DNA of 64,000 bases from Verrucomicrobiaceae bacterium (lineage in GTDB: Bacteria; Verrucomicrobiota; Verrucomicrobiia; Verrucomicrobiales; Akkermansiaceae), in contig JAIYDP010000120.1 in NCBI GenBank assembly GCA_027487435.1, positions 1 to 64,000 of the forward strand, in the 5' to 3' direction. The position numbers and the translations under genes are program-made. How positions within the stretch are numbered: position 1 is the first letter of the stretch; every line of letters starts with the position of its first letter. Shown here in pieces: positions 1,738 to 41,551 of the stretch. The notes beneath the pieces are model-generated. The model saw only the letters and a list, made by a program, of their open reading frames with translations, was not told the origin of the DNA and searched no databases.

Positions 1738-4060
1738 TCACATGTCTTCAAGTCGCAACTCAGGCAGCTCGCGCTCGAGCGGCTCAGCCTGAGACAACTT
1801 TAAAAATCCTCCACGCCTCTGGGTTCCGCGAAAATATTCCCGAGCGTTCATGACAATGACGGTGACAATCAAAGCAGTCATAAATGCTATAAAGGACAAG
1901 GAGACAGGGTTTTCCGCTCCCCTCTGCAGCTGTGACGTCTCTCCGCAGGTGGAATTGTCGCCGTTGAGGACCCCACAGCGATCGAAACAAACATCCGGGC
2001 CAGCAGGCGTCTTTGACCACGTGACAGCGTAAACGGTGAGGCGAAACGCGGCATTGAAGCCTGCAGGGTTCGGATGCTGAGAAGGGAGGGGCATATCGGA
2101 CGACTTGTTGAACATTGCGAAGTAGCTCAAGTTGAATGGCGACTTCGTCGACACGTCGTCAGGCGGTGTTTGAATGAGCCCAACTGCTTCGCCAGGGCAC
2201 CAGCCAGCCCTTCCTACGGGCCAGTTCCCAAATTGATTCGGAACAACGCCACTCGAAACGCGCTCATAGCAGCCGCCGCTGCTGCCCGCTGTGGAAAAAT
2301 TTACGAGGTGGCAGTGAGTGTCGATGCAAAACGAGTGCAGAGTCGGACAGAACTCAGCGCAGTCCGCTGAGTCCCGACCCCATCCATGGCCGGTGACAAG
2401 GGCAACCAAAGAGACGGCGCTCTCGTTTCGTTGCAACTTCTGGGACTGCTTGGGCGCAAAGTTGGAGTTGAAATGCTTGTCAAATGCAAAATAACCGGAC
2501 CACAGCAAGTCGACGCGGGAGGGGTAGAGCTTGTGGATGGGCTGCGACAAAGCCAGCGTCAAAGACACGACGGCAGAGACAAATTCGCCCTGGAGGAACA
2601 CGCTTCCTCCCTCCAGAGCTGCTACCAACAATGGCCACAGCGACGTGACGTCTGTGACCCAAGCGCCAGGACGCCCGTATGGCGTGACCCATCTCGCAAC
2701 GGCACTACATGAGCCCGCAGGAGACATGAGTTCGGGTCGGCCTGGACAAACCATCAAATCAAGAACATAATCCCAATCGCTGCAACTTGATTGAAAGTCG
2801 TGAGGACATCGGAGATCCATGACAAGAGAAACGCGGCTGAATGCACTGGCGTCGCATATGTGCGGAAGCGCAGACGGGTAGGGGAGGCGCACGAGCGAAT
2901 CGACGCGTTGGCCGGTCAGCAGCGGGACCATTCGCTGCGATGAAAGGGCGGTCACGTCAGCCGCCTCAACGTCAAAGGCCTCAGCCTCTAGCAGAAGCGC
3001 CGCCAGCGACGGCTCCAGCAGAACGCCAACCTCCCTTAAGCGACAGAATCTGTCGACCGCAAACATGACGGGTGGCTGCAGGCGCGCGCGAATCTCAGCC
3101 GAAAAGGAGACGTTTGACGCAAGGAGGCTTAAGAGGGTCTGCCCGTCCCGGCGTGAAATGAGCGCCGAGGGTAGGGGTGGGGGGTCTGTTATGCCGCCCA
3201 TTCGGGAAATGGGCTGGTCGTTGATGTTGTAAATGAGGACGGCTGCGGCGTCAAAGAACTTTGCGACCGTCATTTTGGTTGCGAAGGAGCAATTGCCGCG
3301 GGGAATTAGAGCGACGCCGCCGCCGATGTTGTGGCGAGGGGCTTCACTCGCGTTGCAAGCGTCGCCCCCGAAAGCAACCACCAACAGGGGAGGGGTGGGC
3401 AACAGCGCGGAGCCATCTCCGAATGCGATGATCTCGATCGAGCGGTTGAGAAACTCTGCAGCTTTAAGACAGGCAGCGCGGGGGGTGACCGACAAAGACC
3501 GCACGCTCTGACACAGCCCAGTCCCTCATAACGGCACGATACCATGGCGCCCTCGCGGCGGGGTTGAGAGGGCTGAAGTCGGCGTCGGAGAAGCGGAGGT
3601 GGGCGGACCAGAAGGAGGATGCGGCCGAAGACGACAACAAGCGGATTTGAGCGTCGAAATATGCCTGCGTGGCCAAAAGCTCTGCACGGCGGAGTTGGGG
3701 AGTTGGCAGAGAGGATACAAAGAGAATGTCGGCGTTGACCTGGCGCACGGGAAGCGCAGCGGCCGAGAGCTAGAGACGTGAGCTTAACGTTGATGTATGC
3801 GGTGATGTCTGCAGAGCGGAAGGCGGCCTTACATTGCTGTTGGCCAGCCGCTCAGACAGCTCCACGTTTGCGTCTTTCACGACGATGACGACGGCCTTGG
3901 CCGTGGGCACTCCTCGCAAGCGGCAGGAGAGTTCGACGTCGCCGTGAAATGTTGGCCAGCTGATTTCAGAGAGCCGATAAAAGGGGTGGTAGAGGGTCAC
4001 GTTTTCTTCGGCGATGGAGCCAACGATGAGAAGACACAGCCAGACGACATCTCTCTGCAT
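1738..4060 (-). CDS. PNGase F-like peptide:N-glycosidase, secreted/membrane
   Basis: Three exons: 4060-3833, 3769-3490 and 3455-1738 (741 aa, exact frame closure). Residues 1-17 form a signal peptide (MQRDVVWLCLLIVGSIA). A protease-associated-like domain (IPRGNCSFATKM) lies in the middle. The two PNGase F jelly-roll regions follow: CSDWDYVLDLMVC then W-VTPYGRPGAW, and GHGWG through CAEFCPTLHSF to GCYERVSSGVVPNQFGNW. A single transmembrane helix lies near the C-terminus with a short cytosolic tail. In this family the enzyme removes N-glycans from asparagine on secreted glycoproteins. The first intron is 63 nt; the second is 34 nt and starts GTCACCCCCC. Shares a 46-bp promoter with the GxGYxYP gene. 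Confidence 0.82.
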
Positions 4061-4106: not shown

Positions 4107-6006
4107 ATGAGCGTGAGTTTGTTGGCTTTCTTTGCGTTTGTCGGTACAGCGTTCTCCTCAAAGCTCTATGTCCTGGACATCAGCGCTATCGACAACATGA
4201 GCCCACAAGATTCGTTTGAGACTGGGCTCGCGTTGTCCTCACTTCTCGGGATCGTAAATCGAGACGCCCCGCAGATGTTTGTTTTCTACACAGACGTGGA
4301 CCAGTCTTGGCTTCAGTACTGTCAGCAACACTGGCCATATGTGAACTCGAGCGAAATTGTGACCCTTTCTTCCGTTGACGAGGCTTTTGAAGTCATGAGG
4401 GAGTCCTTCCACGGAGCCGTCGTCTTCGACACGTCCGTGCCGTCCACCTCCAACGTCGCTGCAACAATCAGCGGCGTCGAGGATCTCATCCCCGTTGCAA
4501 AACGCTCCAATGCCCTCTCCCCCACCCTCTACGACCGGTTGTCCGCTTCGATCGCAACAATCTCACCCCCCCCCTCCAGATTCGTCTCAACCGGCCGCTG
4601 GCGCACCGCGATTGACTTGACCGGCCGATTTAACGGCTCAGAGACTGGGAGCTCGAAGAATGACGCGTACCGATGGGCGATCAGAGAGTACGTCGACACG
4701 AACCGGTCGCCCCCCCCCCCCTCAACATTCACTCTGACAGAAGCTCCGCCAACACAAGCGGCTACTTCGTAGACTATTTTTGGACCCGCAACACCCGTGG
4801 GCTCCCCTTCTCCGTCTCCACTGTCTTCAACCACGACTACTTCGTCGCTCGGCGCGCTTTCTTTTGGGACCTCAGCGTTTGGGCCGACGAGGCGCCAAAT
4901 GACGACCCTACGCAGCCGCTTGGGACGGACCTAACGACCCTTCGCGCGCTGTTGGGCGCGCTGTCGAATCGAGCCGACTCCCTTGTGCATGTTGGGGGCT
5001 TCACCCCATGGGCGTTCAAATACGTCAACGACCATCACGGCGGCGTTGCTACGGAGTGGCAGACCGTTCGCGTACCCCCCCCCCCCTCATCCACTCACCC
5101 CCTGCGCAGGAGCTCTCGCCTTACGGCGCGTTTTTGGACGCTGACGCCTGCTGCGTCCAGGGCATGGCTAACGCGGCCTTCTTCGCGCATTTTCCACTCC
5201 GCAACTCTTACCGCCAGCACCCCCCCCCTTCAATCGACGACATGATCTCAAAGGGACACGTCCGACGCAACTCATCGGGTGGCCTTGAAGTCGTTGCACG
5301 CCCGTACGCTTTTTTCTACGTTGGCGACTACGACAGTGCGGCGTGGCTTTACCGCGAAATTCGCGCCAATTTCGGAGGGGGGGACAGCTCCGTCCCGCTC
5401 GGCTGGGCGATTGACCCGGAGTTGTCGCTGCGGTTTCCCCTTGCGTTTGATTATATGTTTAATAACTTGCGGGAGCAAGACGTTGTCATCTCAGGGGACT
5501 CTGGCGCCGGATACGTTTTCCCGACGTATTTAGCAAAAGGGGGGGAGGGTGTCATTGACAAGTGGGTCCGCTGGAACCGCGACTGGTTCGCAAAGTTCGA
5601 CCTCGACGTCACGGGATTTGTCATCAACGGCGCTGAGAGGACCGCCCCAGGCGTTGAGGGCATCTACGCGACGTTTTCGTCTGGGGGCATCGTCGAGCAC
5701 ACCACGGGGGGGGGGCCTCGTGTTGTGGCGGATATGCCCATCATCGAGGAGGCATCAGACCTACCCGCACGCTCGTTCCCTCCCGTTGAGCTGACCCATC
5801 AGAACGACGTCGACGGAGCCGTCGAAATAATCGCAAACTCGGTGCAAGGGGGGGGGGTTAAGTTCTTGATGTTCCGCTCCATCCTTCGGACGCGGCAGTT
5901 CCACTCGGACGTCGTCGCGAAGCTGCAGGCGCGGGGGGTTGACGTGACGTTTCTGGACCCGAGGGAGTTGATGGCGCTGGTGAAGATTCACGTCAACGGC
6001 GCGTGA
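4107..6006 (+). CDS. GxGYxYP-family putative glycoside hydrolase, secreted
   Basis: Exons 4107-4705, 4741-5071 and 5110-6006 join in frame to about 608 aa. A signal peptide (MSVSLLAFFAFVGTAFSS) precedes an N-terminal domain starting KLYVLDISAIDNMSPQD. The signature GAGYVFP, preceded by WAIDPELSLRFP, places it in the GxGYxYP family (PF14323), suspected but not proven carbohydrate-active. The spliced stretch TEWQTVR-ELSPYGAFLDADA matches the family across the second intron. Both introns carry 12 consecutive C residues after the donor (4710-4721, 5075-5086). A third possible in-frame intron of 42 nt with a C9 tract would end at the CAG near 4578. Several G7-G10 runs in the last exon are translated as Gly-Gly-Gly. 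Confidence 0.8.
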
Positions 6007-20129: not shown

Positions 20130-23100
20130 TCACGCCACACCAATGCCGGTGGAGGCTTCTTTTGCCGTTTCTTTCAGAAGCAGCTTGGACAGTTGTTTTT
20201 TAGAAATAGGCCCCGCCTTGAACTTAACTGTGAATTCCTTGATGAATCTCGATCTTGCAAAGTATGGTCGGAAATTCTCAGATTTTTCGACACTGCGGAA
20301 ATAATATCTGTGGAATTAGAAATAGGAGTTGGTATCTACTACCTTGTCAATGAAAAGCAAGTACTCCGGACTAGCAGGGCCAGAGACGATAAGGTGACGC
20401 TGGAGCCATCCAGCAGCGGCCCTGTTGCGGGAACCTGCTTCAATTCGGACACAACTTCTATTTTGTATAGGCCAGAGATCTGAGGAGATATCACAATAAA
20501 CGTTCGAGGTATGGCGGCAGAGACTGGAGGCAACGAAAACTTGCTTTTCTTTGCCCACCACACGACAATAATTTTCGGGGCGTTCTTTGCGTCTGCCATC
20601 AGGTCGGTCACAAAGCTGAAGCTCATGTCAACCAACGCCGTCGAGAATCGAACACCAGCTCGGCCGCCGTCTTCTACCCACCCAAGCCCTTCCATGAAAG
20701 TCAGGTACTCGGCTTGACAGTCGCATTGACATGAATCAAATCTCGAATATAGGCCAAACAAATATTTTTCTCGAGTAGGAAGGTCATCAATGGCCTTCAG
20801 AGCTTCGCGGAACCCAGGACCTCGTTCCAAAAGCTCGTAGCCGACGCTTCCAGACGACGCGGCTGCGGTGAGGTGATGGAGGAGGATGCGCGTTGAGTGA
20901 AGGGCACACGCAAGCGACGTGGGGGGCACCGGCTGCACGGCAGCGATGATGTGGCCCTTGTCTGATTCGTTCAATATCAAAGACTCTTCTGCATGCGCAA
21001 TCGCCTTCATCATGTCTTCCACAGCCACACCGGCCGCCTCGAACGCACGCAAACCTTGTGGCTCAGGTGGCGCAAGCGGTGGCGTGTGGAGGGACGCGTA
21101 CGCGTGCGCCTCACTCATCATGTCCGCCTCAATCGTGTTTCTCTGAAGCGAGAACAATGGCAGCTCATCGCCGCTCCTCGCATAGACTTGCGACGAAACG
21201 ACGTCCCCGCCCTCATCCTCCCCACCGCCGGTACCGCCCTCATCCGCACCGCCTCCTTCAACCTGCGCAACTTTCGCCCCATCTTCCCTCGATGGACGAT
21301 CATAAACAAGCCGCAGTGTCCATGCGTGACAGCCCGTCCCATCGCGCACCAGCATAGCAACGTGATCGGTTGGGTTCGGCGCGCGGCCAACGTCTTCAAA
21401 AGAAATAAGAGCGCCGTTTCCAGTCACGAGGAATATTTCTTTTGACGAGTCCCTTTGCGAGGGCTGCTGGACCCTCTCAACGACGGGCAAGCTGTGGTTC
21501 GAATGGGCGAGGAGGTGCGTAAGGAGCGCCACCGACGCCTCACGGATCGGATCGTCGCCGAAGTTGAGGCGCTTCCAAAGGTCAGACACGTCCGCAGCGG
21601 ACGAGGTCGAGATTTTGTCGCCGAAGATTGCAAACATAACAGTCTCCATTATGTCGCCGTACAAGCTCGCGTCGGTGAGAAAGGTCGGGGGCAAGTTCAT
21701 GACGAACTCGGTGAGCGCATGGACGTGCGCAACACACACGGCGGTCCGCACCTTGTCGCTTCGCTTCTTCGGCTGGATCATCATCACAGAACTAGCGCGC
21801 TTGGACTCATCTGATGGCGACTCCTCAGCGCCCGTGCTCAACAAATTTGAGATATTGCGGCACAAGTCCATCACCACCTGCCGCCCATACCCAACAGCTG
21901 CTTTTGCCACCAGCTCCGCATTCAACGCGAGTGCAGCTACGACGTCGAGCGCCGCGAGGGCCAACTCGTCGTTTGGAGACGTACAACTCTCCGTGATGAC
22001 CCGAAAGGACGAAGACAATGAGCCGGGAGCGGCTTGTGCGGACAAAATGGCGTCGACGAGGAAAACGTGCAGGCCATGCAGACAAGAGATACGGGCCTTG
22101 TTGAGATTGTCGTCTCGGATGACCTTTTCAAAGAAAGCCTGCTGCAGAGAGCGCGTGTCGGCAAGGCAAACGTCAGAAGTTTGGGACTTCAACGCCGCAA
22201 CTAACGTGGGCGCTGGGTCTAGAACTTTAACGAAGCCAAGGACGGAGGGGAAGGCCAGCAGGGAGAGCGCGATCGCAACGGCGCAGAAGCGGACGGTCAT
22301 GTCGACGGCACTGGGCCCTTTAGAGGCAACTTTGTGAAGGGCAAAGAGGAAGTCGGCGAGGATGGAGTAAGAGCCTGGGATGCGAAGAAAGAAGAGCGGC
22401 TTTGAGTGGATTATAATCGTCGAGATGACGTGCATGTCGTCCGATGAGAGGGCGAAATGCAACGCCTCGTATATTGCGCAGAGGTAGCCGTCCTGCAGCT
22501 TCTCCCCTCGCGCCGCTGTGACGCAAAGGATTCGACACAGTGCACGAAGGGCAAACGCTTTTCCCCGACCGAACTTGGCGTCTTGTATAAGGGCATTGAT
22601 GAGGAGAGTGGAGGATAGAATGGAGAGGATGGTGTTGCCGCTGGCGGCCGTTGCGCTTGAGATCGCAAACGAGTCCAAGAGCATGTCGGCGACGATGCTG
22701 TAGGCCGAAAGCGCCACCTCGTGTGAGAGAGGATCTCCGAGCGCCGACAACGACGACGGCAGATGAAGGAACCTGTCCCAGTAGAAGAGGACAACGTCCG
22801 GCGCCCAGTCCGGGTCGACGCGAAAGGTTAGAGGGACGATGTCGCCGCGGTCGTAAAACTTTGTGTCGACGATGCGAACGGCAGCTGTGCGCGCTTGCGC
22901 CGAGTCGCGCTTTTCAAATGACGTGTCGAACATGGCGTCCTGAGGGATTGCAAAAAGAGACAAGTCAGCGGCTTCGCTTGTGGAGAGTCGATTCTTGACG
23001 ACGTAGATGTGCGTGATCGCAAGGCGCGTAAGATATACCGATATGCGCTTCCAGAGCTCAAAAAGAGGCCGGAAGGAGATGCATTTGTTAAATGCCCGCT

Positions 23101-24447
23101 TCAGCTCCGTCCAAAGGCCCTGGTCCACCGAGACGGCACGCATCCAAGTCGCGAGCCACGTCTCTGCGCAGTCGATGAGAACTTCAAGTTGAAGCTGAAG
23201 GGACTGGTAGCGGTGGCACTGCTCGGGACATAGAAACGACTGACTCACAGAGGATGTGAGACGGAGCAGCGCTTCCCACGTCTGCGTCGACAACAACGTC
23301 CCCATGCGGGACATCAACGAAAAGACGTCAAAGGATTTTTTGAACACGATCACGACGTCCGCGACCACTCTGTCCTCTGCGCTTGGCCATGATCGTTCGA
23401 ATATTCGCTTGATGTCGTCAAGGATCACGCAGAAGTGCTTATTGAGATCTTGCGCGACGTACAGAGGCCGACAAGTCCCTTGCACCCAGAGGAGATAGAC
23501 GTCAAGAATGAACGACACGGCGGCGGGCTCAATAGTGCCATGGCAAACTCCTGCATGGAAAATACTGATGATCTGCTGAAGATGCTGCGGTGTGCGGAAA
23601 AGGAAGTCTGAGCGGGATGGGCGTTGGCACCAGAGGGAGAGGTACTCAAGGACAACCTGAAAGACAAGAGGGGGCGGCTGGGAAATGACGGAAGATGAGG
23701 GCGCATCGCCGCCTTCCTTCGGAAACGCTGAGGGGACGAGGAGTGGCAAATAGTTTGTGCGCAAGGCCTCAAACCAAAAGCCAAAGTGAGAATCATCAGA
23801 AGATATGGTTTTGAGGATGAAGCGGACCAGTTCCAGTGACTCGACCTCGGTTGGTTGAGACAGAGATGGAAGGAAGGCATGTTTGGACATGGAGATGGAT
23901 GAGCGGCGACTGCCGGAGTGATGGGATTCCATTGTATAGAGAAGCAGCTGGACGATCTTTGGGTCAACGGGCTCGCCGAGGTCTTGGATGAATATGATGA
24001 GCAACTCAGCACCGATGATTCGATAGGAATGGAGGGTTCCGATGTCCACAAGTTGCTCAAGGAGTCCAGTGATGCTTCGAATTTGCCACTTCTTTTTGAT
24101 CAAGTCCGATAAGTGAGTTAGAACGCCCTTCAGAATCCGGAACAATGGAGTGACCTCAGCAACAGGGACAGCTTTTCCCTTTGAAGCAGCCTGATCATGA
24201 ACCTGAAGGGAGCTCAAGAATATGTTGTAAATGACGTTGTAATTCTCGAGGTAAAACGAACGAATCTCCGATTCAGATGAAGCTTCTGACAGCGTCAGGG
24301 GTGTCGTTCCAACCCATGGGCGGTGAAAGAAATGGATGCGTGTGCATCATGAAATAAGAAATTACCTAGAAATGACAGCAGCGTCTTCGACCTCTTCAGA
24401 GGGGCTGCTGTATCATCAAAGAAAGCTTCAAGTTTCTTCTTCGACAT
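20130..24447 (-). CDS. RALGAPA-like: RalGAP alpha-type subunit with degenerate GAP domain
   Basis: Three exons, 24447-24366, 24285-20343 and 20307-20130, total 1400 aa with exact frame closure. The N-terminus (KKKLEAFFDD, then FYLENYNVIYNIF and IKKKWQIRSITGLLEQLVDIG) and the middle block (VISTIIIHSKPLFFL, PGSYSILADFLFALHKVAS) follow the animal RalGAP alpha subunit. Such subunits pair with a beta subunit in a TSC-like complex that switches off Ral GTPases. The C-terminal GAP fold is recognisable (LPTREKYLFGLY, EYLTFMEGLGWVE, GLYKIEVV, GPLLDG) but lacks the catalytic GND Asn-thumb and the FMGGL/EH-DYR elements present in the neighbouring gene, so it is predicted inactive. Introns are 80 and 35 nt. 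Four TTGAC boxes sit 20-40 bp before the start. Confidence 0.78.
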
Positions 24448-24466
24448 GCACAACTTGACAGAGCCT

Positions 24467-24487
24467 GTCAACGTCAAGTCAAGTCAA
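24467..24487 (-). promoter_or_regulatory. TTGAC box cluster before RalGAP alpha-type gene
   Basis: Read on the minus strand, TTGAC occurs four times at 24487, 24482, 24477 and 24471 (first base). Three copies are directly contiguous with 5-bp spacing. They sit 20-40 bp upstream of the ATG at 24447. The core equals the plant W-box core, which WRKY factors bind; whether this organism has WRKY factors is unknown. Confidence 0.5.
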
Positions 24488-24523
24488 AATACTCTTCCTG
24501 CACTCTTACAAATAAATTGAGCC

Positions 24524-27500
24524 TCATGTCTTTCCTACAAAAGCAAGCTGCTCGCTTGGTGTACAAATTTGCTTGTGGCGCCCGCATATTTCAGAGAGTA
24601 GAGTCTTTCGAGTCGGGTACGGTCTCCTGTACCCTTCCTGTTTGTACCGAACTCGGCGATTCGCGTTAATTGCTGTGTGTCGAGAAAGCGGCCCAACCAG
24701 GGACAGCGGAATGATCATGCCATCTTGTAGAGGACCGAATGGTGCAATTTTCTCTCCTTCTTTCGTCGACACGATCACGCGGACCATTCCGCAGGGCATC
24801 GGATTGAGAATGATGTGAACGTGATTGAACTGCGAGGTGATGGTGTTGGGGCGATAGTCGTAAAGATGCTCATTCCAAACAATATGGACGTGGTCATTGC
24901 CGACATGGCGTTTCTTGTGGATTTGCTGCGCGTCCTTCAAGTTATTTGGCATCATCGTGGGCACATGGAAGATGCATTCGAGATTGTATGTCGCGTAGAA
25001 TGGAGCATATCGCCCAGTCGTGAGATTTGGATCGAGGCCCCCCATGAAACCAGGATGGTTGCCAAGGTCAACTGGCCAGCCAAGTGAGGACAGGAACGCC
25101 TCATAGTGAGGGGAGCCTCCTTCGTTTCTGAACAAAAGCCGTTGAGTTTGCTGACCCTTCTTAACGTAGATGACCCCTATCTTGTGGCACTCCCTTTCAT
25201 GAGTCTTATCCAAGCTGTTGATGCTGCGAGTGAGCTTGACCCCCTGCTCCAGCGGCGCCACTTTGGAGTAAAGGTCAAGCGAGAGGATGCCGAGATGCGA
25301 CGCCAATAGCTGCGAGCGAAGGAGCGTTGGTGCGGCAACATCTGGCATCGTTTTCTGGACTTCCAAGCTCGTCCGCACAACTTGTGGATCGTGAGGGACG
25401 CCTTGTTCAAGCGCTTGGGCATCGATGCAATTCCTCCACACTTCGCGCATCGAGGGCTCGGGAAAGGTCGGTGTCGTTGACCAAGATGAGCCGTCAGGAG
25501 GAATGTCGCTTGAATCGAGCGTGGACCGCTTCTTGAGGACCTCGGCGAACGCGTCGGCCTCGCGTGCTTGTTCTGGAGCGCCAGCGTCATCGACGTCCAA
25601 GCTCAAAGACATTTTGGAGATGAGGGACTGCGGAGGTAGGGTTGAAGGGTCAAACTTGATTTGAGAGTCCCAAGCGAACTTGCCGCTCTGATCCCTCAAG
25701 ATCAGGGTGCTGCCGCCTTCAATTGTCAGCAAATTATTGACTGCAAATTGACCTGCTGCGCCCATCGATGGCTTCTCTGATAGCGAAATCATTGCCGCGT
25801 CGTCGAGAATGAAATGGCGCACCGCCGACACAGCTGCCTTGTCCAGAGCGTCAGCAGACCACGTCAGTGCCAACTCTGACTCCTCACTGAAGAGCGCAGA
25901 GACGTTCGATGTCGCAGCTGACACGGGATAATTCGACATGTGGACCATCATGTGGGTGAAAACACACTGGGCGGCCTCTCTTACTCGTTCAACGTTTGGG
26001 TTGGACTCGATAGGCTTCTCTTCAGGCACAGGCGACTGATTGGGTGCATTGGGAGCCTTCACTGACCTCCGCAATATCCCCGACGCTGAATTGGCGCTGT
26101 TGCGACCCTGTTGGTCCTTCTGAGAGTCGGCTGCGGGAGGAGGCTGCGGCAATGCCGAGGCCATCCCCCGGCAGATCTCGACGACGTCAAGAACCGAATT
26201 AAGAATCTCCTGGTCGCCAAAAAGCCAGTCGCAATGCATAAGCCAGTCGAGGAGGCAATAGAGGGCGGAGGACACTTGCACCGACACATCCGTCTCGGAA
26301 AACACTTTCGCTTGCATTTGAGCAAAAATGCAGAGCTCTCTCACGACGGACGGAATGGTCGTTGGGTTTGCCTTGTGGATGATGGCGTTGTGGCGTGAAA
26401 ACTCTGATAAGACTTCAAATACTGCGTTGCGGACTACTGTTGAAGTAGAAGAGGAGAGGAAGCGAAGGAGGGTCTTGATGACGGTAAAGGAGAGGGTGGG
26501 CGATTGATCCATCGAATCAACAACGTAAACGTAGAGGCACCAAAACGCTTTCTCTAAGAGCTCTTGATTCTTTTCAAACTGAACAAACTTGAGTAAGATT
26601 TCGACAGGATCGGACTTAAAGTTGAGATCCTTTGTCTTGATGTGCTTCGAATACTCCACACTTGCAAAATGGCCCACCATGCACATGACGGAGCCAGCGA
26701 TGGTAAGGGCGGCCCGCTTGAGCGCGTCTGACATGCCCGCGGTGAGGAGGATGGTCTTGCACTGCTCCAAGAATACTGGCATGAGAGCGCGCAGTCCTGG
26801 GTGATCCATGCCAAAGAGGTATTGGGAATTCATGAAAATCTCTTCAACAATGCTGTGGCTCGAAGACTGCTGCAGGACATTCGAAACAATGAAGTAAAAG
26901 CGCGACAGGTGAAACGCATGGAACGGAACGCCCGTACAGGCACTGAAAATGCGGCAAAGCGCACCATATGCAACGTTGATGCCATCGATAAAATCTGAGG
27001 TCTTCTTCTCAATGCAACCGAAAAGCCACTCGCCGAAGAGCTCCAACACTGAGTTACCGTCTGGAGGGTTGGGTGTCTGAGGAGGAGCTTTGCCTCGTTG
27101 AGAGGCTGGCAGGCGCCGTCCCACTGACGTCATGTGGTCGGAGAGTGCAGCCACCCCTGTGATGGCGATTGCATGAACTCGCGTGTCAGTGATGACGTTA
27201 GGATTCGCAAGGGTCTGCAGGAAACGGTAGTAGAGATGCAGCACTTGATCGTCAGGAACATCGATGTGGACGACATCGATGCTAGCGAGGTTTATAAGAT
27301 CAGATCCCTCAGTTGGTCCGAAGAGAATTCTGCACAGCCTCATCGACAGAGCAAGCGTGACAGTTGTCCATTGAGTGATCAGGCTTACATGATTGATTCG
27401 CCGCTGAAACAAATGAAACAAAGCCCTCCACAGAGACAAGTCATTGGGAGGATTGCGGACCCACAGCTCAAAGAGAATCTTGATCACTTGCGTACAGATT

Positions 27501-28161
27501 CGACTGCCAACGGCATCATCTTCTGATGGGAAAGACAGAGCGGCATCCGCCATTTTGACGAGAACCTGTGCAAGTAAACAAAGAGTAAACAACGTAAACT
27601 CGAAGGATGGTCGCCCGGCACTCAGGTGAGTACGATTTCCAAGACTCCCGGCCCATGAACACAATAACTTGGAGGAGCTGGGTGTAGAGGCTGCCCAAGA
27701 GATCATTGTATGGGGTTGCGAGTCTTTTCTCGTCAAAGAGAGCAACAAATTGCTGAAAACAAATCTCAAGGTGTGAGGAAGCGCGTGCTACACTGTACCT
27801 GTGCAACAGAGTCAATGCATTGCGTGACGGATGAAGCCCGCCTTTGCCCAAGCAGCCAACCCTTGTACAGCCGAATCACCTTCCAATCAGAACGAAGAAA
27901 AGGGTTCCATACGTTGAGAATAATTTCGCTTTCTTCAGCAGGGTGGAAATGGAAGCACTCCCCTGTAACTTGAAGAACCCAGAATACATGCGAAGGCGTA
28001 ACAAGGGAGTCCTGTTTCTCACTCAACAAGCCAACGAGAGTCAGCGCAAGCGACTTCCGAACAGCAATAGGAAAATCTCGGAGTACTGATCCTTCTGTAA
28101 AATGAGGGGCAAATTTACCTTGCGAACCTCCGTGATCCGTCAGCAGGCACAGCTGCTCCAT
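24524..28161 (-). CDS. RALGAPB-like: RalGAP beta-type subunit with catalytic GAP domain
   Basis: Exons 28161-27799, 27752-27600 and 27565-24524 give 1185 aa. Scaffold blocks match animal RalGAP beta: ICTQVIKILFELWVRNPP, SMRLCRILFGP, NSVLELFGEWLF, GALCRIFSACTG with HLSRFYFIVSNVL, and RHFILDDAAMISLSEKP. The C-terminal Rap-GAP domain, however, is complete: ECHKIGVIYVKKGQ, FLSSLGWPVDLGNHPGFMGGL, TTGRYAPFYAT, then HVGNDHVHIVWNEHLYDYR, which contains the Asn-thumb of the GND motif, and GPLQDGMIIPL. In animals this active form lies on the alpha subunit and beta is degenerate. The gene directly precedes its partner subunit gene, same strand, 76 bp apart. Introns are 46 and 34 nt; one optional 24-nt in-frame intron may follow GGSQ. 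Confidence 0.8.
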
Positions 28162-28250: not shown

Positions 28251-30508
28251 ATGGCACTCTTGCTGCTGCCGCATGACATTCTGTTTGATGTGGTTGGAAG
28301 GGTTTCTGTACGAAAGGTCGTACAATTGGCTTCCACGTGCTCATCCTCCTTTAAATTCATTTGTAATGCAGACTTGATGCGTGCCCTGCATTCTCTTCTT
28401 GTCCAATCAAACTCAATGCGGCCTAAGCTGCTACTTGAAGAGCGCATGGTGCTGCTTCATGAGTTCTGGTGCTCTGCATTAGGTAGAAAGCAGCAATTGG
28501 CATGTCATGACAGCCTCACCCGATTTCTCTTGCAATCTCGGCTTAGTAGTCTTCTCAAGCGCTTTGGGACAGAAAGGTACTCCTTCTTCCGGAGTTTCGT
28601 CTACTTGCAGAGCCTCTCTGCGTCGAATTGTTGCTCTTTCTGTGGTTCCGAGACCCGCAACAAATTCATCACGTCTTTCGCCATGAGGCTCTGCAGCGTC
28701 TGCATTTCCAACTTCGTCCGGCTGAAGGACGAAGTCCCTCAAGTAATCTCTGCAATGGCCGTCCCCATGGAGCGCGTAATCGATCCTGCTCAGGACGGCT
28801 CGAGGTTCCTCGTTTTCCTCCCCGATTTTGTCGCCTTGAGGATCCTCCCCAACGTCCCATCCCCTCGGGGAGCTGCTACCCCTTCCGCCGTCTCCCCGTC
28901 GATCCTCGCAGCCCAAATCAAAATGAGGAGGGCAAGCCTCGCCTCGTTGTTGCACAAAGTGCGCGTCGCTGAGTTCGGCGGGCCACGCGATCCCTTGCTG
29001 ACTCTTGCGCTGGAGTACTATTTGAAGACTGACAAGTTTGAGAGGGTGTGCTCGAACATAGCCGCTTTTCAAATCAACAAGCCGCTTGCTCGCAACCTCA
29101 TGGAGAGGCTTCGCTCCGAGACTTTTGAGCGGTTCAATCGGCTGCGACAGTGGGGCCGCGACATTGGCCACGAGCTTATGAGCTTTCTCGCTGACGTCAA
29201 GACCATGGGTCCCGTCCAATGCGAAGTGTTTTCATGCTTCGTCGCAACGGGCGAAATTCCGCATCGCTTCAAGAGGGACTTCTACAGCGTCCTTGAGGAG
29301 CAATCAACGAGCGCAGACCACTTCTGTGCATTGCTCCTCTTGGCCTTGGGCAGGGCTGATCGCCTCAATGAGGCCCTCAAGCGCGTCTTGGGCGCAGAGT
29401 CCACAGGCCTTGACGAATTGGGCTCTGACTTTGAGCGCTCCCTCTACAAAGACTACGTCCTCTCCCGAGGCTTCAATGGCGTCCTTAACGTCTCAAGCCA
29501 GGCCGTCGCAGACGTGTTCAACTTTGTTCGCATCCTCCGGTCGCTCGTTCTTTCTGAGCTGCCGCGCTGGGATGGCGAATTCATCAACTGCTCCTCCCTC
29601 TCTCTCATCCACAGGGCAATCGACCGACGCATCAGGTCCCTCACGTCTCTGCATGTCGGGACTGTCCTCACAGCCGAAGATCAGGCCCTGTACCTCTATC
29701 AGAACGTCGTATGCTTAGAAGCTAAGGCCTACGCCCGCATGGACGTCCTGCGGGATTCCCTTGCTTCAAGAGGCCTTGCCCCAGGCGAGTACAAATTGCA
29801 CTTAGGCCTGCGCGAGGTCTTCAATTTCCTCCAAAGCGTTCTTTCACGGGCGAACTACAGCATCTTTGACGACTTCAGACTTGTCGCTAACAAGTTTCGA
29901 AAGGGTAGTGTCGGCGACGTCGTTGATGTCGCCATTACCCTCTATGTCTCCCTCGGCGACTTCATGTCTTTCCACGCCGTCGACATGCCCCTCGTCCTCG
30001 ACGCTTTCGCCCGCAGAGAGCAGCTCCTCAACCACCTGCATCGCTCCCTCCAACCGCGCAGAAATTCCATCAAATCCATCACCCCAGCCGACATCCTTCG
30101 CTTTGCAGACTTTGCCGAGCCTTTCATCGCCACCAACGCCTACGGCAGCGGCGCCGCAGAAGCCGAGCTCGTCCGCATTAGCGAGGCTCTCCCAGCCGCC
30201 AGCGGCGTGATCTCGACGTGCCTCCGCTGCCACACCGCCGCCTCAAACGCCCTCTTCGTGCGCATGTTCACCTCAGCCCTCGTCACCGGCGCCGGAGGTA
30301 CGGCTGCGGCAGGGATGCGGGACAGCTCGTTTGAGCTTCTCGTCGAGGTCGACCGCACTGGCGGCGCCGAGGACGAAGATGGTGAGCTGATCCGAGGTAC
30401 TGGGGGGGGGGTGAGTGTTTCTTGTGTGGGCGGTCAGATGTGGAAAGCACTGACAGTTCGATGGTTCCAGGCGCGTCCAGATTTGCAGGGGGTGTCAGGG
30501 CAGGCTAG
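28251..30508 (+). CDS. F-box protein with helical body
   Basis: Exons 28251-30396 and 30438-30508 give 738 aa. The extreme N-terminus is an F-box (LPHDILFDVVGRVSVRKVVQLASTC), so the protein is probably an SCF ubiquitin-ligase substrate receptor. A small Cys cluster follows (CCSFCG ... MRLCSVC), which may bind zinc. The rest is a long, mostly alpha-helical region without WD40 or LRR repeats, so the substrate-binding module is unrecognised. The 41-nt intron near the end carries a G10 run; splicing it out gives an acidic, Ser-rich tail ending at TAG 30506-30508. Without splicing, the frame runs on to 30653 in low-complexity sequence, which is less plausible. The gene is divergent from the RalGAP beta-type gene. 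Confidence 0.65.
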
Positions 30509-30982
30509 CATTGTTTCATCCCATCAGAAATTCAAAACCCTCACATCCATTTCATTTCAAAAAAAGACCCATGCCGCGCTGGCCTCTAGGCTGCGCTGTC
30601 CCTCTTTTTCTTGCTTTACATTGACGAGGGCGGCAGGTCCACAAATTATTTAAATGTAGCCGCATGAGTAATCATCAAGTCAAAGGCCACATACATCAAG
30701 CAGTTTGCCTCATTTAATCCGTCTTTCAAAACGCCCTCATCAATAAGGACAGTGCTTAATGCAACGCATCAATTCCAAATCCTCAAATCATTTTGATGTC
30801 TGCCGTTTCACTTCAAAAATTGGATTTCCGCAATAAAAGCGCCCCCCTGAATCCGCGGCAGGCCAGCCTTCCCCCCACGTCCAGGCGCCAATTCCAAGCT
30901 CCCCCCTCCCAGAGCAGCGCCGCGAAGTTATGGACAACGACAGCAATGCTGCGGCTGTTCGGGTCATGTTAATGTGATGATG
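30509..30982. other. Gene-free stretch
   Basis: No reading frame with coding character is seen on either strand. The sequence has two oligo-C patches (30843-30900) and is otherwise AT-rich. It lies between the stop of the F-box gene and the stop of a tiny minus-strand gene, so it should hold two convergent 3' ends. Confidence 0.5.
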
Positions 30983-40725: not shown

Positions 40726-41551
40726 ATGGACGATGACGAGCAGGTTGAGCGTCTGCAGTACAAGGTCTCTCTCTTCACTGATATTCACCCACGTGACCCG
40801 ATTTGAAGTTTTGTCTTCTATTTTCATGCTGATGATCTATTCTCATGCGCGAGGTAATCTTGCTTGGAGACGGCACCGTTGGGAAAACATCTTTGGCTGT
40901 GCGATTTACCGACGATACCTTTGGCTTGAACTACAAACAGACCATTGGATTGGATTTTTTTAGTAAGAAGATCGACCTTCCTGGTGAAGCCCATGTTACG
41001 CTGCAAGTGTGGGACATTGGCGGACAAACGATTGCTTCGAAAATGCTCAGCAACTACATTTATGGATCACATGCCGTCATCCTGGTGTATGACATCACCA
41101 ACTATCAGAGCTTTCAAAACATGCAAGATTGGTTAGCAATCGTCAAGAAAACGTTCGCCAAGGGAACCATGCCTTACGTCGCCTTGGTTGGAAACAAAAG
41201 TGAATCCAGCCGTCTTCGTCTCATCCTCCAGCCGACCTCAGTTTCTCGAGAACCGTGCGCCCAGAGCGGCATCAGAAATTTGCAGAAGAGAACGAGATGT
41301 ACACGTACAACGTCAGCGCAAAGACTGGCGATCAAGTGAACGCGATGTTTTACCGAATCGCGGCGGATTTAGCAGGAGTAGTGCTCTCTCGGCCTGAAGT
41401 TGAAGTCGCGACTGTAGGTAAACGGAGGACGACGCTAATGCGTTTTCAGAAAATTGTCAAGGCGGAGATCGTGAACCACGCAAACGTCGAGGGCGTGGCC
41501 CCTCCGAAGCCTGATGGCGCAGAAAAGAAAAAGGCGTGTGTTGTGCAATAG
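40726..41551 (+). CDS. RAB28: RAB28-type small GTPase
   Basis: Exons 40726-40764, 40854-41199 and 41232-41551 give 234 aa. G1 is GDGTVGKTS, switch [10 protein letters not shown]3 WDIGGQT (with GG rather than AG, as in RAB28), G4 NKTD is formed across the 32-nt intron, and G5 is VSAKTG. The [19 protein letters not shown] segment and the tail [14 protein letters not shown] also match RAB28. The C-terminus CVVQ is a CaaX box predicted to be farnesylated. RAB28 is an IFT/BBSome-associated GTPase at the ciliary base, which supports a flagellated host. The first intron (89 nt) is unusually long for this window. Confidence 0.9.

Follow-up and report, generated by a model that had tools for sequence, protein, structure and literature searches.

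A RalGAP-like gene pair in which the catalytic site probably lies on the beta-type subunit

RalGAP complexes and a related gene pair

In the human RalGAP complex, as described in PMC12311180, the alpha subunit is catalytic by means of an Asn thumb in its GTPase-activating protein (GAP) domain, the beta subunit is a pseudo-GAP with a loop in place of the catalytic helix, and a hug insertion in beta stabilises the GAP domain of alpha. This agrees with what an initial annotation of the DNA analysed here had stated for animals, namely that the active GAP domain is that of alpha and the degenerate one that of beta. The present analysis concerns two RalGAP-like genes in a stretch of 64,000 nucleotides (the window; contig JAIYDP010000120.1, assembly GCA_027487435.1, filed as a Verrucomicrobiaceae bacterium). 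They encode P1, a putative alpha-type subunit of 1400 residues with a degenerate GAP domain (20130–24447, minus strand), and P2, a putative beta-type subunit of 1185 residues (24524–28161, minus strand). Like human RalGAP alpha-2 and beta (PDB 9qwp), P1 and P2 are large paralogues with HEAT-SD-GAP architecture, and in both pairs only one member has kept its GAP domain intact while that of the other is degenerate. The intact domain is on alpha in the human complex, whereas here it is on a scaffold that looks beta-like, and the pseudo-GAP, in which a long loop replaces the helix in human beta, is shortened in P1. The likely reading of the two sequences is therefore a reversed arrangement, with the catalytic site on the beta-type subunit.

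A search against solved structures places the pair among these proteins. P1 matches the 9qwp chains with 51.1 bits for alpha-2 and 37.5 bits for beta, and P2 with 243 bits for alpha-2, a score driven by the GAP domain, and 125.6 bits for beta. Tuberin, i.e., TSC2, is matched by P2 with 86.9 and 86.8 bits and is not its closest match overall. The Asn-thumb GAP domain of TSC2 (7dl2, 9ce3; fungal TSC2 GAP, 6ssh) aligns with that of P2, which scores higher to RalGAP alpha; according to PMC12311180, TSC2 is a homodimer with GAP domains, bound to TSC1, and a common ancestor of alpha, beta and TSC2 is called probable. Rap1GAP (1srq, 3brw) shares the Asn-thumb GAP domain with P2 but has no RalGAP scaffold, and its score is lower. 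According to PMC12871552, Dictyostelium Leep2A and Leep2B are homologues of RalGAPA1/A2 and RalGAPB, and they form a heterodimer that acts as a GAP for RasB, RasG and RasD. Leep2 is thus a related, RalGAP-like complex.

The GAP domains and scaffolds of P1 and P2

P2 ends in an intact Asn-thumb GAP domain (24677–25192, minus strand), which matches the Pfam family Rap_GAP over its full extent (169.9 bits, E = 5.5e-50) and is about 45–47% identical to the human alpha GAP domains. The three motifs that the initial annotation had named are all in place on the minus strand: EHLYDYR at 24851–24871, GND at 24893–24901 within KKRHVGND (24916–24893), and FMGGL at 25034–25048. The GND motif aligns with those of human alpha-2 and TSC2, and its Asn, residue 1062, is presumed to be catalytic. 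The pseudo-GAP that characterises RalGAP beta is thus absent from P2. When the bin was searched with the profile PF02145, P2 was the single match; the bin is partial, and a second active GAP gene may exist.

In P1 the corresponding region (20354–20770, minus strand) has lost the catalytic helix and the FMGGL loop and retains the C-terminal strands, so that the active Asn-thumb GAP that characterises RalGAP alpha is missing. Its Rap_GAP match is partial (21.9 bits, E = 1.4e-4) and lies below the curated cut-off of 27. Since its alignment to human alpha exceeds that of shuffled sequences (z of 8.5 for alpha-2 and 11.4 for alpha-1, against 5.3 for beta), chance likeness is excluded, and the C-terminus of P1 is, judged by alignment, a degenerate GAP domain. 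The motifs GND, FMGG and EHLYDYR are absent from the P1 gene (24447–20130) whichever of its three forward frames is read, which bears out the shortened GAP domain described at first and leaves no hidden GND exon within the gene, the finding that had been named as contrary to it. P1 does not look like a pseudogene, because a frame of 1292 residues is open even before splicing.

P1 begins with what segment scores and a collinear alignment identify as an alpha-type N-terminal domain (residues 1–223; 23699–24447, minus strand). Its z values against shuffles are 11.7 for alpha-1, 13.5 for alpha-2 and 0.3 for beta, and residues 3–217 are collinear with the N-terminus of alpha-2. Throughout, the references are human alpha-2, beta and a provisional alpha-1 sequence, and z values listed in threes are in the order alpha-1, alpha-2, beta. 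The human counterpart of this domain binds kappaB-Ras. As in RalGAP beta, the domain is absent from P2, the N-terminus of which scores 0.8, 1.2 and 0.5; the P2 reading frame starts at the position where beta starts, and a divergent open reading frame (ORF) begins upstream at 28251. The latter (28251–30653, 800 residues) has no Pfam match, and its start appears F-box-like by eye. At the level of sequence, then, three properties of the pair are established: an intact GAP domain on P2, a degenerate one on P1, and an alpha N-terminal domain on P1.

The remaining scaffold segments give a mixed picture. For P1, the z values are 24.7, 22.3 and 15.5 in the mid-HEAT, 1.5, 0.8 and 2.2 in the C-HEAT, 5.6, 6.5 and 0.0 in the SD segment, about 0 against all three references in the tail, and 28.3, 24.6 and 11.3 for the whole scaffold. 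For P2, they are 6.1, 5.2 and 14.8 in the N-HEAT, 11.1, 16.4 and 14.2 in the mid-HEAT, 3.4, 6.2 and 4.1 in the C-HEAT, 14.8, 23.6 and 10.4 in the SD segment, the strands of which run from NPNVERVREA to the landmark FDPSTLPP (25631–26002, minus strand), and 2.3, 1.5 and 5.4 in the tail. Of these, the N-HEAT and tail values of P2 speak for its beta-type identity. Both proteins have a RALGAPB_N (PF20412) region on the minus strand, P1 at 23003–23353 (40.7 bits, and 37.4 bits in a second search) and P2 at 27314–27595 (62.3 bits, and 70.7 bits when its spliced N-terminal part was searched). The name of this family was rejected as proof of a beta identity, human alpha-2 itself matching it with 106 bits and beta with 129.6 bits. 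The sequence blocks on which the scaffold assignment had originally been based do exist, in P1 as KKKWQIRSITGLLEQL (24097–24050) and VISTIIIHSKPLFFL (22429–22385) and in P2 as GALCRIFSACTG (26965–26930) and RHFILDDAAMISL (25819–25781), but not all of them separate alpha from beta. Better evidence for the assignment comes from the N-terminal domain of P1 and from a likelihood comparison of the scaffolds.

An alignment z mixes kinship with the pace of change in each human subunit, and likelihoods were therefore compared. The scaffold sets comprised either five sequences (P1, P2, the provisional alpha-1, alpha-2 and beta; seven alignments with 581–602 ungapped columns) or the same without alpha-1 (four alignments with 582–604 columns). 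In all 11 alignments (7/7 with alpha-1 and 4/4 without) the best tree joins P1 with alpha and P2 with beta, and the opposite pairing is behind by 3.4–14.1 units of log-likelihood (lnL). Single segments that favour the former tree are the N-HEAT (3.9 lnL), the mid-HEAT (4.8) and the C-HEAT (1.2). Two additional runs under WAG+F agree, with P values of 0.050 and 0.180 for the opposite pairing in the approximately unbiased (AU) test. Simulations that took either of the competing trees as true, with and without alpha-1, gave the favoured tree a lead of at least 3.41 lnL in 0/100 cases each; they model no alignment error. The scaffold orthology first proposed, P1 with alpha and P2 with beta, is in this sense statistically favoured by the sequences at hand.

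Several observations weigh against this assignment and against the reversed arrangement built on it. The N-HEAT segment of P1 prefers beta (z of 3.8, 5.6 and 11.9), and the whole scaffold of P2 is nearer to alpha (33.8, 47.8 and 30.3), a preference driven by its SD segment. The first 113 residues of P2, at the end where beta has its homodimerisation helices, are not significantly similar to those of beta (z = 1.7, with 34/500 shuffles as good). On the SD segment alone the opposite pairing is ahead by 0.33 lnL. The AU values of the opposite pairing range from 0.006 to 0.24 over the 11 alignments, so that some do not reject it, and to this extent the proposed assignment stands with a reservation. 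The trees sample one species here and one human pair. Finally, the numbers of events tie: the favoured tree requires one loss of the N-terminal domain and the loss of two GAP sites, and the opposite tree requires that the N-terminal domain was lost twice and a GAP site once.

An alternative is that the scaffolds are mislabelled and the arrangement is the usual one, P2 being an alpha subunit that has lost its N-terminal domain and P1 a beta subunit that has retained it. The scaffold score of P2, the equal event count, AU values above 0.05 in some alignments and the lean of the GAP trees described below all fit such an account. It is nevertheless considered unlikely, and is placed third, since it would leave the N-terminal domain of P1, which is alpha-specific, and the preference of every scaffold alignment for the other labels, a lead that the simulations did not reproduce, to be explained in some other way. 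Another possibility is that a lineage-specific duplication gave rise to P1 and P2, which would then not be one-to-one orthologues of alpha and beta. The scaffold identities are low throughout, about 15–30%, and leave some room for it, but the tree that joins P1 with P2 has AU values of 0.004–0.045 in the 11 scaffold alignments, and this origin is regarded as very improbable.

Histories of the two GAP domains

If the scaffolds are correctly assigned, the position of the active site can have been reversed in two ways, both named by the initial annotation: by recombination, or by losses from an ancestor with two active subunits. The GAP domains were compared over 122–132 columns in 11 alignments, and the resulting trees are compatible with both histories. 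In 11/11 alignments these columns prefer the pairing opposite to that of the scaffolds, P2 with alpha and P1 with beta, by a lead of 0.13–2.55 lnL. A lead of 1.25 arose under the scaffold tree in 3/100 simulations, and, when the dead GAP domains were given an extra rate, in 2/100 and 3/100. Rate differences, as they were modelled, are hence unsupported as the cause of the lean. Because such leads are rare in simulations under the scaffold tree, the lean, unexplained by the modelled rates, counts as mild evidence for an exchange and so against reciprocal loss. Among GAP columns in which alpha and beta differ, moreover, P2 agrees with alpha at 43.

The main rival to reciprocal loss is accordingly a C-terminal exchange, in which unequal recombination or gene conversion between the neighbouring genes swapped their GAP domains, perhaps together with the SD domains. 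The beta-type scaffold of P2 would then bear a GAP domain of alpha origin, and the alpha-type scaffold of P1 the pseudo-GAP of beta. The genes are indeed in tandem and 76 bp apart, the SD region is neutral, with that of P2 scoring higher to alpha, and the direction of the GAP trees is what a swap would produce. The lead itself is small, however, and the scaffold-favoured tree retains AU values of 0.20–0.51 on the GAP columns. When TSC2 outgroups were used and P1 was omitted, three trees fell within 1.1 lnL of each other, and the one joining P2 with alpha was the lowest. The remnant of the GAP domain in P1, too, is nearer in score to alpha than it is to beta. The 43 states shared with alpha are expected between any two active GAP domains, and P2 agrees with beta at 14 columns, including PH, SLGW, GxHPG and DGM; the states in PH, SLGW and GxHPG, which neighbour one another and are found in human beta alone, are not expected in a GAP domain derived from alpha. 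An exchange is for these reasons judged improbable.

Reciprocal loss is preferred as the most likely history, being the simplest in which each GAP domain stays with its own scaffold. Its starting point would have been a TSC2-like homodimer with two active sites. A duplication would then have turned it into an alpha/beta heterodimer in which both sites were active; subsequently the human lineage would have lost the GAP site of beta, and the lineage studied here that of alpha. The complete account, in which P2 is a beta-type catalytic subunit, P1 is its alpha-type pseudo-GAP partner, and both descend from a two-site ancestor by reciprocal loss, is put at an even balance between right and wrong. 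The more general proposition, that the ancestor which this organism shares with the animals had two active GAP domains, one per subunit and with interchangeable roles, of which the lineages kept opposite ones, is held slightly more tentatively.

In such a complex the Asn1062 thumb of P2 would promote GTP hydrolysis by a GTPase of the Ras family. P1 would dock via its SD domain, and its hug insertion would brace the GAP domain of P2, the part that beta plays towards alpha in the human complex. By landmarks, insertions at the hug position have about 110 residues in P2 and 131 in P1; the human hug constructs in PMC12311180 had 96 residues deleted in each. Dimerisation, activity, target and two-site ancestor are all inferred. 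AlphaFold models of the two C-terminal halves had mean predicted local distance difference test (pLDDT) values of 31.8 and 32.9. The bin gave 24 Ras-family matches, of which 20 were examined as loci. At E = 1e-6, 19 of these loci match a member of a provisional panel of 14 human GTPases, the best matches being of the Rab, Rac, Ran or Arf types; in this partial bin, none of the 20 loci has Ral, Rap, Ras or Rheb as its best match. Ral may be absent outside opisthokonts.

Gene models, host and implications

The genes of P1 and P2 lie head to tail on the minus strand with P2 upstream, and positions 24448–24523 separate them. Partner subunits encoded by neighbouring genes are seldom expected in eukaryotes. 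Each gene is modelled with three exons on the basis of GT-AG borders, reading frame and homology. The putative introns, all on the minus strand, are 80 nt (24286–24365) and 35 nt (20308–20342) long in P1, and 46 nt (27753–27798) and 34 nt (27566–27599) long, both GT-AG, in P2.

The window carries eukaryotic genes interrupted by short introns, as well as a segment for a Rab-like GTPase, while the relatives of the bin are prokaryote genomes; it appears to be a eukaryotic contig that was binned with a bacterium. An exact pattern of 22 bases for eukaryotic 18S had no match, and matches to EF1A were obtained. The Rab-type segment (40854–41246) has a Ras Pfam score of 108.6 bits and human Rab1A as its top match (37%). 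Elsewhere in the window, an ORF at 1738–3504 combines a PA domain with a PNGase F C-terminal domain, which is unusual, and one at 5008–6006 has a putative glycoside hydrolase C-terminal domain, GxGYxYP. Pattern scans for relatives of P1 and P2 gave 18 and 26 stretches in genome contigs and 32, 19, 0 and 1 in viral contigs, none of which was confirmed, and PF20412 was matched in the window's own bin only, in 1/97 and 1/260 genomes.

Searches of the open literature listed nothing recognisable as an account of a RalGAP in which beta is active or alpha dead. The novelty of the arrangement is provisional, because it may already be known from Leep2, the most obvious candidate. In the standard account alpha is the enzyme of RalGAP, and the inactive beta serves to stabilise it. 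If the reversed arrangement is true, this division of labour would be an evolutionary accident, in which either of two sites could be lost, and RalGAP would be linked to a two-site homodimer of the TSC2 type. The pair would also make it possible to ask, in a natural system, which of the hug domains activity requires, and it would call for caution when the catalytic subunit is assigned by scaffold homology in other eukaryotes.

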